In this document: positions 43,102 to 49,242 of the stretch, one piece after another
How positions within the stretch are numbered: position 1 is the stretch's first letter
Layout: the number at the start of each line of letters is the position of its first letter
Assembly (NCBI RefSeq): GCF_020171845.1
Contig: NZ_JAIVAM010000008.1
Span: forward strand, 62,001 to 126,000
DNA: 64,000 nt
Source of the DNA: Cytobacillus kochii
Lineage (GTDB): Bacteria; Bacillota; Bacilli; Bacillales; Cytobacillaceae
Reading direction: 5' to 3'
The notes under the pieces: model-generated
What the model saw: only the letters and a program-made list of their open reading frames with translations
The model's database searches: none
Told to the model about the DNA's origin: nothing
Translations under genes and position numbers: made by a program

Positions 43102-44297
43102 TGAAACCAATTTTTCAAAGAGCTATTCCGATTATTGAAAAGCTTGAGGAAGCAGGTTATGAAGCTTATTTTGTCGGTGGTGCAGTGAGGGATCTTCTAA
43201 TTGGTCGTGAAATAGCAGATGTAGATATCGCTACATCTGCTACACCGATTGAAATGAAAGCGATTTTTTCTAAAACGGTTGATGTAGGTATTGAGCATGG
43301 TACCATACTTATTCTCCTAAAAGGTGAAGCATATGAAGTAACAACATATAGGGCAGAGTCAACGTATAGTGACTTTAGAAGACCAGATGAAGTCCGTTTT
43401 ATCCGTCATTTAAAGGAAGATTTACAGAGAAGAGACTTTACTATGAATAGCATTGCTATGGATAAAAATGGTGAATTAATTGACCCCTTCGCTGGAAGGG
43501 AATCAATTCAAAATAGAGAAATAAAGACCGTTGGTTCAAGTGAAGAACGCTTTAATGAGGATGCCTTAAGAATGATGCGAGCGCTTCGCTTTAAAAGTCA
43601 ATTAGGTTTCCTGCTCGAAGAAGGAACATATGATGCATTAAAAAAGAAAGCCCATCTACTGCAACATGTGGCAGTTGAAAGGAAGCTTGTTGAATTTAAT
43701 AAATTATTACAAGGAGACTATCGAGTAGATGCCTTGACGCTTCTGCAAGACTCAAACTTGCATCTCTATTTACCAATGCTTTCGCAAAAGGAGAAGGGAC
43801 TTGATCAGCTCGTCACTTATCCTCTTCAATCATTATCCTTGCTTGAAATATGGGTTCTGCTCTTAAAGGTTTTTCAATTAAATGAGCATGAAGCAAAGTT
43901 AGGATTAAAAGAATGGAAGATGTCAAGTAAAGACCTGAAAGAAATACTCAATCTATATCAGTGGTTCCAAAAAAGACTTTCAACACCTTTTCAAGCTACT
44001 ACAATTTACCACAGTGGTTTATCAGTAGCAGTGAGTGCTGAAAAACTTCATCAAGTATACAATCATGAAAGAGTAGAATATCCTGATCATTTAGTTGAAA
44101 TGTATAGCAAATTGTCGATTACTTCAAGAAAACAATTAGCAGTCAATGGCACTGATATTATCACTTGGAGTCAGCAATCAGCTGGCCCTTGGCTAAAGGA
44201 ATTATTAGCAAAAGTTGAGGAAGCAATTATACTTGGAGAATTACAAAATAATAAAGAAGATATCAGGGAGTGGCTGTTTCAATGGAATCAGAAATAA
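43101..44297 (+). CDS. cca: CCA-adding tRNA nucleotidyltransferase
   Basis: Adds the 3'-CCA end to tRNAs without a nucleic acid template. The 398-residue class II enzyme has the catalytic head GGAVRDLLIGREIADVDIATSA (with the DxD Asp pair, about residue 25-46), RRDFTMNSIAMD (about 113-124) and RMMRALRFKSQLGF. The start is ATG at 43101 (overlapping the bshA stop) with GAGG 7 bases upstream, or ATG at 43098. birA overlaps its 3' end. Confidence 0.96.
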   Translation: MKPIFQRAIPIIEKLEEAGYEAYFVGGAVRDLLIGREIADVDIATSATPIEMKAIFSKTVDVGIEHGTILILLKGEAYEVTTYRAESTYSDFRRPDEVRFIRHLKEDLQRRDFTMNSIAMDKNGELIDPFAGRESIQNREIKTVGSSEERFNEDALRMMRALRFKSQLGFLLEEGTYDALKKKAHLLQHVAVERKLVEFNKLLQGDYRVDALTLLQDSNLHLYLPMLSQKEKGLDQLVTYPLQSLSLLEIWVLLLKVFQLNEHEAKLGLKEWKMSSKDLKEILNLYQWFQKRLSTPFQATTIYHSGLSVAVSAEKLHQVYNHERVEYPDHLVEMYSKLSITSRKQLAVNGTDIITWSQQSAGPWLKELLAKVEEAIILGELQNNKEDIREWLFQWNQK

Positions 44298-45262
44298 GGA
44301 AGAAGTTATTAAATGCCTTCACGACTCACCAAGATGATTATTTGTCCGGGCAAGCTATTGCAGATTTACTCGGTTGTTCACGCACAGCAGTGTGGAAGCA
44401 TATAGAGAATCTTCGGAAAGAAGGGTTTGAATTTGAAGCGGTGAGAAGAAAAGGATATCGCATCATTGCTACACCCAAAAAAGTGATTGCTGATGAAATA
44501 CGTTATGGTTTGAAAACAAAAATACTTGGTAGTCATATCCATTATGAGGAATCAGTGGACTCCACACAAAAAGTAGCCCATCAATTAGCAACAGATGGTG
44601 CTTGTGAAGGTACGATTGTAGTAGCAGAAGAGCAAATAAGCGGTAGAGGGAGAATGGACCGAAAATGGATATCCCCTAAATATACGGGTGTTTGGATGAG
44701 CGTCATTCTTAGGCCACAGCTTCCCCCTCATCGTGCACCCCAATTAACACTTATTGCGGCTGTTGCAGTTGTTCAGGCAATCGAGGAAGTGACCGGTTTA
44801 ACAGCTGAAATTAAATGGCCTAATGATGTGTTGATTAATGGTAAAAAAGTAACAGGGATATTAACAGAGATGCAAGCAGATGCAGATCGAATCGTTTCTA
44901 TAATTATGGGAATTGGTATTAATGTGAATCAGAAATTAGAAGACTACCCCGAGGAGATTCAACCTATCGCCACCTCCCTTGCAATTGAAAAGAAAGAAGA
45001 AATCTCGCGCGCACAGATTATTCAAACACTTTTATTCAACCTCGAAAAACTTTATCAACTTTATTTACAGAATGGTTTTCAACCGATAAGAATTTTATGG
45101 GAAAGTTATGCCATTAGTATAGGAAAAAATATAAAAGCGCGTACACTATCTGGTACCATAGCGGGTAAAGCGATAGGAATTACAGATGAAGGCATATTGC
45201 TTTTAGAAGATGAGGCTGGTGTGCGACATCAAATTTATTCTGCAGATATTGATTTAGAATAA
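44282..45262 (+). CDS. birA: Biotin-protein ligase / biotin repressor BirA
   Basis: Attaches biotin to acetyl-CoA carboxylase and represses biotin genes. The 326-residue protein has an N-terminal winged helix (SGQAIADLLGCSRTAVWKHIENLRKEGF, about 18-45), the ligase ATP/biotin loop GRGRMDRKW (about 120-128), KWPNDVLINGKKVTGIL (about 183-199), and a C-terminal SH3-like domain. ATG at 44282 aligns with the B. subtilis start; AGGGAG lies 11 bases upstream, rather far, and an in-frame GTG at 44270 is possible. It overlaps cca by 16 bases. Confidence 0.95.
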   Translation: MESEIRKKLLNAFTTHQDDYLSGQAIADLLGCSRTAVWKHIENLRKEGFEFEAVRRKGYRIIATPKKVIADEIRYGLKTKILGSHIHYEESVDSTQKVAHQLATDGACEGTIVVAEEQISGRGRMDRKWISPKYTGVWMSVILRPQLPPHRAPQLTLIAAVAVVQAIEEVTGLTAEIKWPNDVLINGKKVTGILTEMQADADRIVSIIMGIGINVNQKLEDYPEEIQPIATSLAIEKKEEISRAQIIQTLLFNLEKLYQLYLQNGFQPIRILWESYAISIGKNIKARTLSGTIAGKAIGITDEGILLLEDEAGVRHQIYSADIDLE

Positions 45263-45275
45263 TAGATATTTTTTA

Positions 45276-45304
45276 TAGAAAGTTAACACAATTATTGATA
45301 TACT
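45276..45304 (+). promoter_or_regulatory. Promoter of the panBCD leader
   Basis: TGATATACT at 45296-45304 is an extended -10 (TG plus TATACT). TAGAAA, a 4/6 -35 match, lies 17 bases upstream. The start point would be about 45310, exactly at the first leader hairpin. Confidence 0.5.
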
Positions 45305-45310
45305 TTGTGT

Positions 45311-45392
45311 GGGCAGTATCGGTAAGAACTGCACCTGTTTGACCATCATTTATACGCGAAATCTGCCTAGATCCATTTAGGACCAGGACAGA
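45311..45392 (+). ncRNA. pan-motif-like leader RNA (two bulged-A hairpins) upstream of panB
   Basis: Two tandem hairpins precede panB. In the first, GGGCAGT (45311-45317) pairs with ACTGC-A-CC (45328-45335), leaving a bulged A. In the second, TCTG-CCT (45362-45368) pairs with AGG-A-CAGA (45385-45392), again with a bulged A, and an inner TCC/GGA stem closes an ATTTA loop past an AGA/CC internal loop. Paired hairpins with bulged A residues upstream of panB are the description of the pan RNA motif, a candidate cis-regulatory RNA of pantothenate synthesis genes. The match is from memory of the architecture and has not been scored. Confidence 0.6.
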
Positions 45393-45424
45393 GGGATGAG
45401 TTTAATAATGAGAATATACACTAT

Positions 45425-45459
45425 CCTTCTGCACTTTTTTTGTAGAAGGTTATTTTTAT
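45425..45459 (+). terminator. Leader terminator between the pan-like RNA and panB
   Basis: CCTTCTGCA pairs with TGTAGAAGG (one G-U) around CTTTTTT, followed by TTATTTTTAT. It could end birA transcription, or act as the expression platform of the leader RNA, since it lies between the two hairpins and panB. Confidence 0.75.
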
Positions 45460-45516
45460 GTCTTTCTCATTATCAGTAGATCATCACCTCTTCCTATTAA
45501 AAAAGGAGGAAGTAGG

Positions 45517-46353
45517 ATGAAACAAACGACTGATTTTTTGAAAATGAAAAGTAAAGGTGAGAAAATAGCCATGCTCACGGCATACGATTTTCCACAGGCT
45601 AAATTATCAGAGCAAGCTAATGTCGATATAATTCTTGTCGGCGACTCACTAGGAATGGTTGTATTAGGTTATGATTCAACGATTCCGGTCACAATGAATG
45701 ATATGATTCACCACGCTAAAGCTGTGAAGCGCGGGGCAAAAGACACTTTTATCGTGGTAGATATGCCGTTTATGAGCTACCATATTTCCATGGAAGATGC
45801 GCTCATAAATGCGAGAACCTTGATTCAAGAAACTGGTGCTCATGCAGTTAAGGTTGAGGGTGGAGATGAAGTAATAGATAAAATTGCTGCAATGACAAAT
45901 GCAGGTATACCAGTTGTCGCACATTTAGGTTTAACACCACAATCAGTTGGTGTGTTAGGTGGTTACAAAGTACAGGGTAAAGATGCAAAAACAGCCCAAA
46001 AACTAATCAATGATGCAAGAAAATGTGAACAGGCGGGGGCTTTTGCTCTTGTTCTTGAATGTGTGCCACAACAGCTATCTAAAGAAGTATCATTAATCTT
46101 AAATATCCCGACAATTGGGATTGGTGCGGGTGTGCATACAGATGGCCAAGTACTTGTGTACCACGACATTCTCACATATGGCGTGGAGAGGGTACCAAAG
46201 TTTGTTAAGCGCTATTTAAATAGTGGAGAAATGATGGAAGAAGCCATTTCTGCGTATGTAAAAGAGGTTAAGAGTAGACAATTTCCAGAGGATAGCCATT
46301 CTTTTAATATGAAAGAAGAAGAACTTTTAAGTCTCTACGGAGGAAAGAAATGA
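45517..46353 (+). CDS. panB: 3-methyl-2-oxobutanoate hydroxymethyltransferase
   Basis: Forms ketopantoate from alpha-ketoisovalerate and methylene-tetrahydrofolate, first step of pantothenate synthesis. The 278-residue TIM-barrel protein has [31 protein letters not shown] (about 42-60, metal and substrate site) and AVKVEGG, with GIGAG near the C-terminus. ATG at 45517 follows AAAGGAGGAAG. The stop overlaps the panC start. Confidence 0.98.
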
Positions 46354-47195
46354 AAAAAGTGACAAGCATCAAAGAAATGCAGAAAATCATCAAAGACTTC
46401 CAAAGAGAAGGGAAATCAATTGGGCTTATCCCGACTATGGGTTATTTGCATGAAGGCCACTTAACACTAGCTAAAAAAGCACGTTTACAGAATGATATAG
46501 TCGTCATGAGTGTTTTTGTAAATCCGCTACAGTTCGGAGAAAATGAAGATTTGGCCACTTATCCGAGGAATTTAGACAGAGATATGCAATTAGCAGCAGA
46601 AGTGAAGGTAGATTACCTGTTTCATCCAACAGCAGATGAAATGTATCCGCAGAAGCAAGCGATAACAATTCATGTTGAAGAAAGAACAGAAAGACTTTGT
46701 GGTGCTTCTAGACCTGGACATTTTGACGGTGTTGTCGTGGTTGTTTCTAAATTATTTAATATTATTCAGCCGGAAAGAGCTTACTTCGGTAAAAAAGACG
46801 CACAACAACTTGCAGTAATAGATTTGCTTGTAAAAAATTTAAATTTTCCGATTGAACTCATTGCGGTGGATACGGTGAGAGAAAGTGATGGCTTGGCAAA
46901 GAGCTCAAGAAATGTATTTTTAACAGAAATAGAACGCAAAGAGGCGGCTGTGCTTTTTGAGAGTTTACAGGCAGCGGAAGCAATCATCACAGAAGGAGAA
47001 AGAAATACAGCTCGTATAATTGAAGTGATGAAAACAATGCTTCATGAGAAGACAAGTGGTGAAGTCGATTATATTGAGATTCTTTCTTATCCAGAATTAC
47101 AACCAAGCAATGAAGTTAACGGTGTAATCATTATTGCGTTGGCCGTGAAATTTTCCAATGCCCGCTTAATCGATAATATCATCATTACAGCATGA
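46350..47195 (+). CDS. panC: Pantoate-beta-alanine ligase (pantothenate synthetase)
   Basis: ATP-dependent joining of pantoate and beta-alanine. The 281-residue nucleotidyltransferase-fold protein has [14 protein letters not shown] (HIGH-type motif, about 27-40), FVNPLQFG, and the KSSRN (KMSKS-like) loop at about 186-190. ATG at 46350 overlaps the panB stop (ATGA), with GGAGGAAAG just upstream. Confidence 0.98.
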
Positions 47196-47216
47196 GGTCA
47201 TAGAGGAGGGTTTAAT

Positions 47217-47600
47217 ATGTACAGAACAATGATGAATGGCAAAATTCATAGAGCAACAGTAACAGAAGCGAACCTAAACTACGTCGGCAGTATTACGATT
47301 GATAGTGATATTTTAGATGCTGTTGATATGTTACCAAATGAGAAGGTACAAATCGTTAATAATAATAATGGAGCAAGATTCGAAACGTATATTATCCCTG
47401 GTGAAAGAGGGAGTGGTGTTATTTGTGTTAACGGCGCTGCCGCACGTCTCGTGCAACAAGGGGATATTGTGATTATCATTTCATATGCTCAAGTAGCGGA
47501 GGAAAAACTCAAAGGTCATCAACCAAAAGTAGCGATTATGGGAGCAGATAATCAAATAATTGATATGCTTCACCAGGAACCAGCTAGTACGATTTTGTGA
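47217..47600 (+). CDS. panD: Aspartate 1-decarboxylase
   Basis: Pyruvoyl enzyme producing beta-alanine from aspartate. The 127-residue pro-enzyme is expected to self-cleave between Gly24 and Ser25 in NYVGSITID; Lys9 and Tyr58-region residues ([12 protein letters not shown]) are present. ATG at 47217 follows GAGGAGGG. Last gene of panBCD, with a strong terminator after it. Confidence 0.98.
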
Positions 47601-47690: not shown

Positions 47691-47871
47691 TTGTGTTTAT
47701 CGACACAAATGGTTACTAATTTATTATTAGCCGAAAGGGGTCATTACAGACTTGTTATTTTCATAGTTTCTTTTTGTACAAAATGACAACAGTTTTAGTT
47801 AATAATGGTAAAATAATTCGTATGAGTATGAAGGGATAAAGAGAAATAAACCATTGAAGGAGACGATCAAG

Positions 47872-49242
47872 GTGAAAAAAACCGCTTTTTTATTTGCATT
47901 AGCAGTGTTGTCGATATTTATCATTGTTGCATGTAGCAACGAAGAGACAAAAAAAGAAGAAGTTATAGATGAGGATAAATCAATTGAGGCTGTAGCAGAT
48001 AAAGCAAATGATATAAAAGATGAAGAAAATCCAGTTTCTCAAACTTTGTTACCTATTCCCCAATCGTTTAAGGAATCAGTTGACTATGGTTACACAGGTG
48101 AATGGGCGATGAAGGAATTTTCCAATGAAGTAAAGTCGGCACTTGATCAGCTACCCTCTATTACGATGGAGGCTACAGAAGAAGAGATTGATGCCTATGA
48201 ACGTGAAATCTTTTCCCTATTTAAAGAGAATTTAAGTATGCCAAATGTACCGATTGATCAATGGCAAGCAATGAAATTTGCAGATCCAACCGTTACTGAA
48301 GAGGAAAGCCAATTAAAGAAAAATTATAATGTAGCTATATTACTTGATGCTAGTGGTAGTATGGGTGCTCTAGAAAATGGAAAAACAAGAATGGAACTTG
48401 CAAAAGAAGCGATTAATCAATTTGTTGATAGTTTGCCAGAAAAAGCGAAAGTTTCATTAACTGTATATGGACATAAAGGAACAGGAGATGAAGCAGATAA
48501 AGAGGTTTCATGCAGTACTGTAGAACAAGTGTATTCTCTTTCAGCCTATGATAGTAAAGAGTTTACAAATGCCCTAGGTAAATTTAATCCAGCTGGATGG
48601 ACACCAATGACAAAAGCAGTTGAACAAGCAATGGTTAATTTAGAATCACATGATGGTTCAGAGAATACGAATATTATTTATCTTGTGAGTGATGGAATCG
48701 AAACTTGTGGAGGAAATCCTGTACAGGCAATGGAAAAACTGAGTGATTCTAACTTAAGTCCAGTCGTTCAAATCATTGGCTATCAAGTTAATAACGATGG
48801 TTTAACGCAGTTGAAAGAAATGGCAAGGGCTGCAAATGGACAGTTTATTAATGTCCAAAATCAAGAGGATCTAAAGGCAGAATTTAAACGAACCACGGAA
48901 ATGGCTGAAGTATGGTCAGAATGGCATAGAAATAGCAATGATGCCATTAATAATCTTAATAAAACGGTGCAAAAACAATTAAATGACTGGCATCATAAAG
49001 AGCAGGAAAAGATGAATAGAGAGCGTAAAAATCTACAATTGGCTATCAATTATTTAAATGAGGAAAACAAGATAGATACCGATGTTTTCTTACGCTTAGA
49101 TGAAAACTATCGGGCATACTATTTACAAGTCGATAAAGAAGCACGTAATCTTTATCTTGAACTGGATCAACTGAATAGGGAATCATTTCTTGATAACTGG
49201 GAAGAGATTAGTGAGATATTCTTAAAAAATGTGAGTGAATAA
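47872..49242 (+). CDS. von Willebrand factor A domain lipoprotein
   Basis: A 456-residue predicted lipoprotein: N-terminal signal with the lipobox IVAC (Cys at about residue 21), an acidic linker, a VWA domain (about 152-345) with an intact metal-ion site (DASGSMG at about 159-165, Thr in GWTPMTKA, Asp in VSDGIETCGG), and a C-terminal helical, coiled-coil-like region (about 350-456). VWA lipoproteins bind partner proteins at the outer membrane face; the partner is unknown. GTG at 47872 is preceded by AAGGAG (47857-47862). B. subtilis has no gene here between panD and dinG, so this is a local insertion. Confidence 0.85.
   Translation: MKKTAFLFALAVLSIFIIVACSNEETKKEEVIDEDKSIEAVADKANDIKDEENPVSQTLLPIPQSFKESVDYGYTGEWAMKEFSNEVKSALDQLPSITMEATEEEIDAYEREIFSLFKENLSMPNVPIDQWQAMKFADPTVTEEESQLKKNYNVAILLDASGSMGALENGKTRMELAKEAINQFVDSLPEKAKVSLTVYGHKGTGDEADKEVSCSTVEQVYSLSAYDSKEFTNALGKFNPAGWTPMTKAVEQAMVNLESHDGSENTNIIYLVSDGIETCGGNPVQAMEKLSDSNLSPVVQIIGYQVNNDGLTQLKEMARAANGQFINVQNQEDLKAEFKRTTEMAEVWSEWHRNSNDAINNLNKTVQKQLNDWHHKEQEKMNRERKNLQLAINYLNEENKIDTDVFLRLDENYRAYYLQVDKEARNLYLELDQLNRESFLDNWEEISEIFLKNVSE

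Follow-up and report, generated by a model that had tools for sequence, protein, structure and literature searches.

A pan RNA in front of panBCD of Cytobacillus kochii and a proposed OFF-switch in which one strand may choose between hairpin 2, a terminator and the ribosome-binding region

The analysed window is a 64,000-nt stretch of the Cytobacillus kochii contig NZ_JAIVAM010000008.1. Its panBCD genes (45517-47600), consisting of panB (45517-46353, PF02548), panC (46350-47195, PF02569) and panD (47217-47600, PF02261), all on the plus strand, lie downstream of a pan RNA, and a glycosyltransferase gene, a cca-like gene and birA (44270-45262) lie upstream of it. birA is directly upstream of pan in the window and directly downstream of pan in two other loci (L261 and L315), suggesting from gene order that the biotin ligase and pantothenate genes remain neighbours despite the changed arrangement. 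Between panD and a dinG-like gene, which encodes RNase_T plus helicase domains, 47854-49242 encodes a 462-aa protein with a von Willebrand A domain and, by eye, a lipoprotein-like N-terminus.

The leader itself holds three features of gene expression on the plus strand. A consensus scan gives the extended -10 promoter-like site that the original prediction had placed before the hairpins (45276-45304), with a weak -35 (45276-45281), TG (45296-45297) and the -10 TATACT (45299-45304), a match at 9 of 12 consensus positions that is in itself no evidence of function. The -10 is identical in the nearest relative, and transcription would be expected to start near 45311. The intrinsic terminator predicted downstream of the hairpins was also found by sequence scan (45425-45459); its stem (45425-45449) has nine pairs and is followed by TTATTTTTAT, with a T-rich tail. 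The ribosome-binding site of panB, AGGAGG (45504-45509), was assigned by sequence and is paired in the minimum-energy fold.

A covariance search of the window shows a match to Rfam RF01749 (pan) at 45310-45395 on the plus strand, with 60.9 bits (gathering score 36.2 bits) and an E value of 3.5e-8, in which model positions 1-92 of 92 are aligned. RF01749 is the sole match, and other Rfam families, such as T-box, were not found in the 64-kb window. This significant hit confirms 45310-45395 as a genuine copy of the known pan RNA family, the identity originally predicted for the leader of panB. According to the Rfam structure line, hairpin 1 (45310-45335) carries bulged A45318 and A45333 and hairpin 2 (45363-45391) carries bulged A45371 and A45388, and the alignment to RF01749 thus contains two hairpins with two conserved bulged A's apiece, as the family definition asks. 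The bulged A predicted on the 3' side of each hairpin is present, but it is not the single bulge of the stem, as a second A lies on the 5' strand. The leader folds below its dinucleotide shuffles by 2.6 sd for 45308-45470 and by 3.9 sd for 45308-45530, and 0 of 200 shuffles fold as stably. The genome contains one pan copy. B. subtilis likewise gives a pan match.

At E values up to 0.001, pan is present in all 193 searched genomes of the family Cytobacillaceae, in 319 of 397 genomes sampled from the order and in 116 of the 299 phylum genomes sampled; one related family has it in 14 of 15 genomes searched, 13 of them above the cut-off. With every searched genome of the family carrying pan, the window copy, which had been suggested as a useful model for the motif, does not stand out in that role. 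Because the element is ordinary in its distribution, the useful question is its mode of action. The nearest named panB, from Cytobacillus stercorigallinarum, shows 97% identity in a comparison that may omit records of the window's own genome, and relative to a leader whose panB is 97% identical, the region from hairpin 2 to the start codon contains one base change, located in the spacer. Two genomes have a second, weaker pan (G066, with L159 and L171; G192, with L161 and L170); unrelated sequence displaces hairpin 1 in L171, and the normal panB start was not recognised in L159.

The base of hairpin 2 (CAG) and the conserved tail behind it make up the strand CAGAGGGAU (45389-45397), which pairs without interruption over nine positions, including one G-U, with AUCCUUCUG (45423-45431), a segment that shares bases with the terminator's 5' arm. 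The tail part of this putative switch strand is the end left unpaired by the Rfam model, and its GGGAU (45393-45397), single-stranded in pan, would serve as a toehold. The terminator arm repeats UCUG from the 5' strand of hairpin 2, and by sequence the antiterminator excludes both hairpin 2 and the terminator. We then compared relatives, using 160 parsed leaders from 171 loci (nine of the other 11 lacked the hairpin-2 pattern and two a recognised panB), 156 of which enter the duplex and antiterminator swap tests. In these 156 order leaders the duplex of a 14-base tail and the arm has a mean energy of -14.2 kcal/mol vs -9.0 with shuffled arms, and 152 of the duplexes are stronger than the average of their own shuffles. 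A pan terminator was found in 58 of 81 sources for the comparison with 158 other terminator-like hairpins, drawn from the window and 80 named loci; pan tails reach -14.3 with the pan terminators vs -6.2 with the others. All 58 pan terminators pair more strongly than the 5th percentile of the other hairpins, 38 of them more strongly than the 1st, while the duplex of the window has -15.1 kcal/mol and the best of 30 other window hairpins -13.3. Strong pairing with the pan tail is a property of the pan terminator specifically.

No column-level co-variation of the antiterminator is seen in 39 aligned family leaders, because both strands are almost invariant there; column-by-column analysis is uninformative in the family, and own and swapped partners were therefore compared in wider sets. 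Across the phylum the tail varies (e.g. GACGGAAGG) and the arm varies with it (CCUUUCGG, CCUUCCGU). Read by eye, ACGAAUGCG stands opposite CGCAUUUGU in L263, where the automatic terminator call picked another site, and GGGAAAGA stands opposite UCUUUCUC in L309. In permutations that ignore relatedness among leaders, 0 of 5000 swaps were as good as the own partners in 63 leaders representing all groups, with one leader per tail, and again 0 of 5000 in 58 phylum leaders. The corresponding counts are 22 of 5000 in the order alone (n=17) and 27 of 5000 for the GACGG tails (n=45), a weak result, and with one leader per 17-nt tail in the order (n=39) the test is not significant (313/5000). A six-class test of tail vs terminator arm gives 28/720. 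The phylum set comprises 67 loci with pan sites taken from search coordinates, as pattern finding failed at many loci; one gave no terminator, three duplicates were left out of the antiterminator and helix swap tests, and some chosen start codons are doubtful. Automatic terminator calls look wrong in several of these loci (L259, L263, L296), which weakens the test built on them. The co-variation predicted for relatives' leaders is thus present in the phylum swaps but not significant in one of the two order tests and absent from the near-invariant family columns. Control by transcription termination, as originally predicted, is supported, since the leaders conserve an antiterminator that competes with hairpin 2 as well as with the terminator and that shows co-variation across the phylum, and on this pairing evidence we regard the antiterminator as the firm part of the proposed expression platform.

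The direction of the putative switch was examined by constrained folding, at equilibrium and not co-transcriptionally, of 141 of the 160 leaders; the 19 skipped include L162, L163 and L165-L169, which have long linkers, as well as L112 and L151. The hairpin 2 contrast sets the forced hairpin against its blocked 5' strand, and the hairpin 1 control sets blocked against free. Opening hairpin 2 lowers the terminator probability by more than 0.1 in 69 leaders and raises it in 3, and increases ribosome-site accessibility in 68 and decreases it in 3, with less change in the remaining 69 and 70, respectively, so that roughly one leader in two shifts by less than 0.1. Blocking hairpin 1 shows no such bias (terminator, 16 falls and 13 rises; ribosome site, 4 rises and 12 falls). 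The mean terminator probability is 0.78 in free leaders, 0.58 with hairpin 2 blocked and 0.78 with hairpin 1 blocked, and the mean ribosome-site accessibility is 0.19, 0.33 and 0.17 in the same order. When the window leader goes from hairpin 2 forced to its 5' strand blocked, the terminator falls from 0.56 to 0.33 and ribosome-site accessibility rises from 0.007 to 0.58. Together with the swap tests, the comparison with other terminators and the relatives whose tail is itself the ribosome-binding site, the computed folds indicate that closed hairpin 2 should be the OFF state, firmly at transcription and less firmly at translation. At the point where transcription has just completed the terminator arm, the antiterminator is on average 1.5 kcal/mol more favourable than hairpin 2 (sd 2.1) among 140 of the 160 leaders, and it is the favoured structure in 102 of these 140; the comparison requires the antiterminator motif and thus cannot show that the motif exists. 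The energies in the window are -31.5 for the antiterminator vs -28.5 for hairpin 2. Two structures so close in energy would make a poised switch that a bound effector could tip.

The tail has a further potential partner beyond the terminator. A long-range helix pairs 45390-45399 (AGAGG, GAUGA) with UCAUC-A-CCUCU at 45481-45491, and its second segment in the minimum-energy fold pairs 45405-45414 with 45464-45473, which are complementary at 10 of 10 positions. CCUCU (45487-45491) is alternatively able to face the ribosome-binding site of panB, and none of its bases, which lie a short way ahead of AGGAGG, is retained in fewer than 36 of the 39 aligned family leaders. In the minimum-energy fold of the whole leader, hairpin 2 coexists with the greater part of the long-range helix and the ribosome-binding site is paired, and this modelled fold would be an OFF state. 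Because the 3' strand of the helix is transcribed after the terminator, the helix would act only on read-through RNA.

We propose, with a probability of roughly 0.65, that the pan leader is a genetic OFF-switch in which one strand chooses between hairpin 2, the terminator and the ribosome-binding region. Polymerase would transcribe both pan hairpins first, and an effector, probably either a pantothenate/CoA pathway product or a protein that signals the state of that pathway, would keep hairpin 2 closed, so that the terminator forms and panBCD stay untranscribed. Without the effector, the tail GGGAU would pair with the emerging terminator arm and invade hairpin 2, giving the CAGAGGGAU/AUCCUUCUG duplex, which would block the terminator and let transcription continue. 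Past the terminator, pairing of the switch strand with UCAUC-A-CCUCU would hold CCUCU away from the ribosome-binding site and leave translation on; if hairpin 2 is closed in read-through RNA, CCUCU would mask that site as a second OFF layer.

As for the effector, open-licence literature including riboswitch reviews yielded no ligand or mechanism for pan, in agreement with the original view that its ligand or factor is unsettled; subscription papers and supplements, mostly outside that literature, may hold one. In the passages concerned, transcriptome studies list pan before panB and give no mechanism. Our survey of the first genes downstream of pan did not settle the effector either. In L278 and L280, pan lies upstream of a gene of the sodium/bile-acid symporter family (PF01758 in L280; L278 similar by eye), and a relative, PanS, is a pantoate transporter; by this analogy the symporter genes may hint at the effector. 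Among the loci outside the order (L252-L320), the first gene is Rossmann-type oxidoreductase-like by its GxGxxG pattern in 34 of 67 (e.g. L256, L271, L282, L299), with PF10728 DUF2520 and PF10727 in L256, and it may stand in for ketopantoate reductase. In L285 a weaker pan match lies before a BioY family gene, with a promoter-like stretch between, and in L308 another lies before an amidohydrolase gene.

The effector could also be a dimeric protein that binds the two hairpins as two sites, in place of a small molecule. The linker between the hairpins varies widely, pan matches in the genus spanning, for example, 86 to 158 bases, which suits such a protein. Several genus relatives (L162-L169) have linkers much longer than that of the window, with matches up to 158 bases. 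The guanidine-II riboswitch, however, is also built of two small hairpins with a variable linker, and no protein candidate emerged in this analysis. Guanidine-II differs from pan in sequence and genes, and a ligand of pan is only putative. A dimeric protein-binding motif was suggested, on account of the simple tandem structure, in the text that described pan upstream of pantothenate genes (Weinberg et al. 2010, PMC2864571). We place the chance of a dimeric protein a little short of even, and it would fit either platform, the one proposed here or termination alone.

Transcription attenuation alone, with the post-terminator helix as a stability or insulating stem or with CCUCU pairing only with the ribosome-binding site, is an unlikely account that bears on the second layer. 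The translational layer is computed, the family alignment of 39 leaders contains few two-sided changes in the long-range helix, and the helix swap test is not significant in 43-44 phylum leaders (379/5000), although in L295 and L305 the helix pairs over nine bases. The six-class test of the tail alone vs the post-terminator stretch likewise shows no class preference (451/720). Against attenuation alone, tail plus spacer pair with the post-terminator stretch of their own leader at -16.5 vs -13.6 when swapped, with 0 of 5000 permutations as good in 88 order leaders, and in terminator-less relatives the ribosome-binding site is involved through the tail or through the tail's partner (L112/L321, L151/L324, L323, L329, L331). 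Read by eye, the tail AGAAGGAG is the apparent ribosome-binding site of L321 and L324, a few bases before ATG, and in L329 and L331 a CCUUCUU strand stands opposite AAGAAGGAG with no T-run, where the tail's partner masks the ribosome-binding site without a terminator; other leaders of the same related family retain terminators. These sequences suggest that closed hairpin 2 would be OFF in the terminator-less variants too. In one clade (L038, L041, L044, L048) the terminator region (AACCUCC...GGAGGUU) is outsized and contains an inner hairpin, and a CCCCUGUC strand there could also face the pan tail.

In an activating switch, binding would open hairpin 2 or stabilise the antiterminator and the effector would turn panBCD on. 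The antiterminator is also a conserved structure, but the conserved structure of the family is hairpin 2, which is exclusive with the antiterminator, and feedback on biosynthesis genes usually represses, making activation improbable. A fixed, unregulated attenuator with real structures and an unresponsive read-through ratio suits the leaders that scarcely respond in folding, but is very improbable given that all searched family genomes retain pan and that compensating changes preserve the platform in the wider sets.

The proposed OFF-switch resembles the TPP and FMN riboswitches of Bacillus, which are terminator-type OFF switches, in having a mutually exclusive sensor, antiterminator and terminator before biosynthesis genes; in pan, the last sensor hairpin and its conserved tail would themselves be the antiterminator strand. 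The HMP-PP (thiS) riboswitch, as far as its description goes (PMC6478431), is similar in that a compact sensor is directly wired to the terminator decision, but it is terminator-embedded, whereas the pan sensor precedes the terminator and shares only the antiterminator strand. Compared with the pan motif as described (PMC2864571), the window has the same tandem hairpins with two conserved bulged A's each before panB-panC-panD in Bacillota, and the motif is no different; the antiterminator, the long-range helix and the ribosome-site pairing are absent from that description, supplements aside. The element is therefore of a known family, and the expression platform, which is partly supported by co-variation, is a testable proposal of this analysis.

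There is slightly better than an even chance, in our estimate, that the Rfam-unpaired tail acts both as toehold and as switch strand, for which hairpin 2, the 5' arm of the terminator and the strand masking the ribosome-binding site compete, and that the pan family as a whole is a two-layer OFF-switch whose partner has been exchanged between lineages. If this is true, the last pan hairpin would be wired directly into the expression platform, and lineages would exchange the terminator and the ribosome site as its partner. Vitamin B5 production in Bacillus is of industrial use. With a predicted switching strand, direction and set of partners, mutants and a read-through assay would have a predicted sign, and effectors could be screened.
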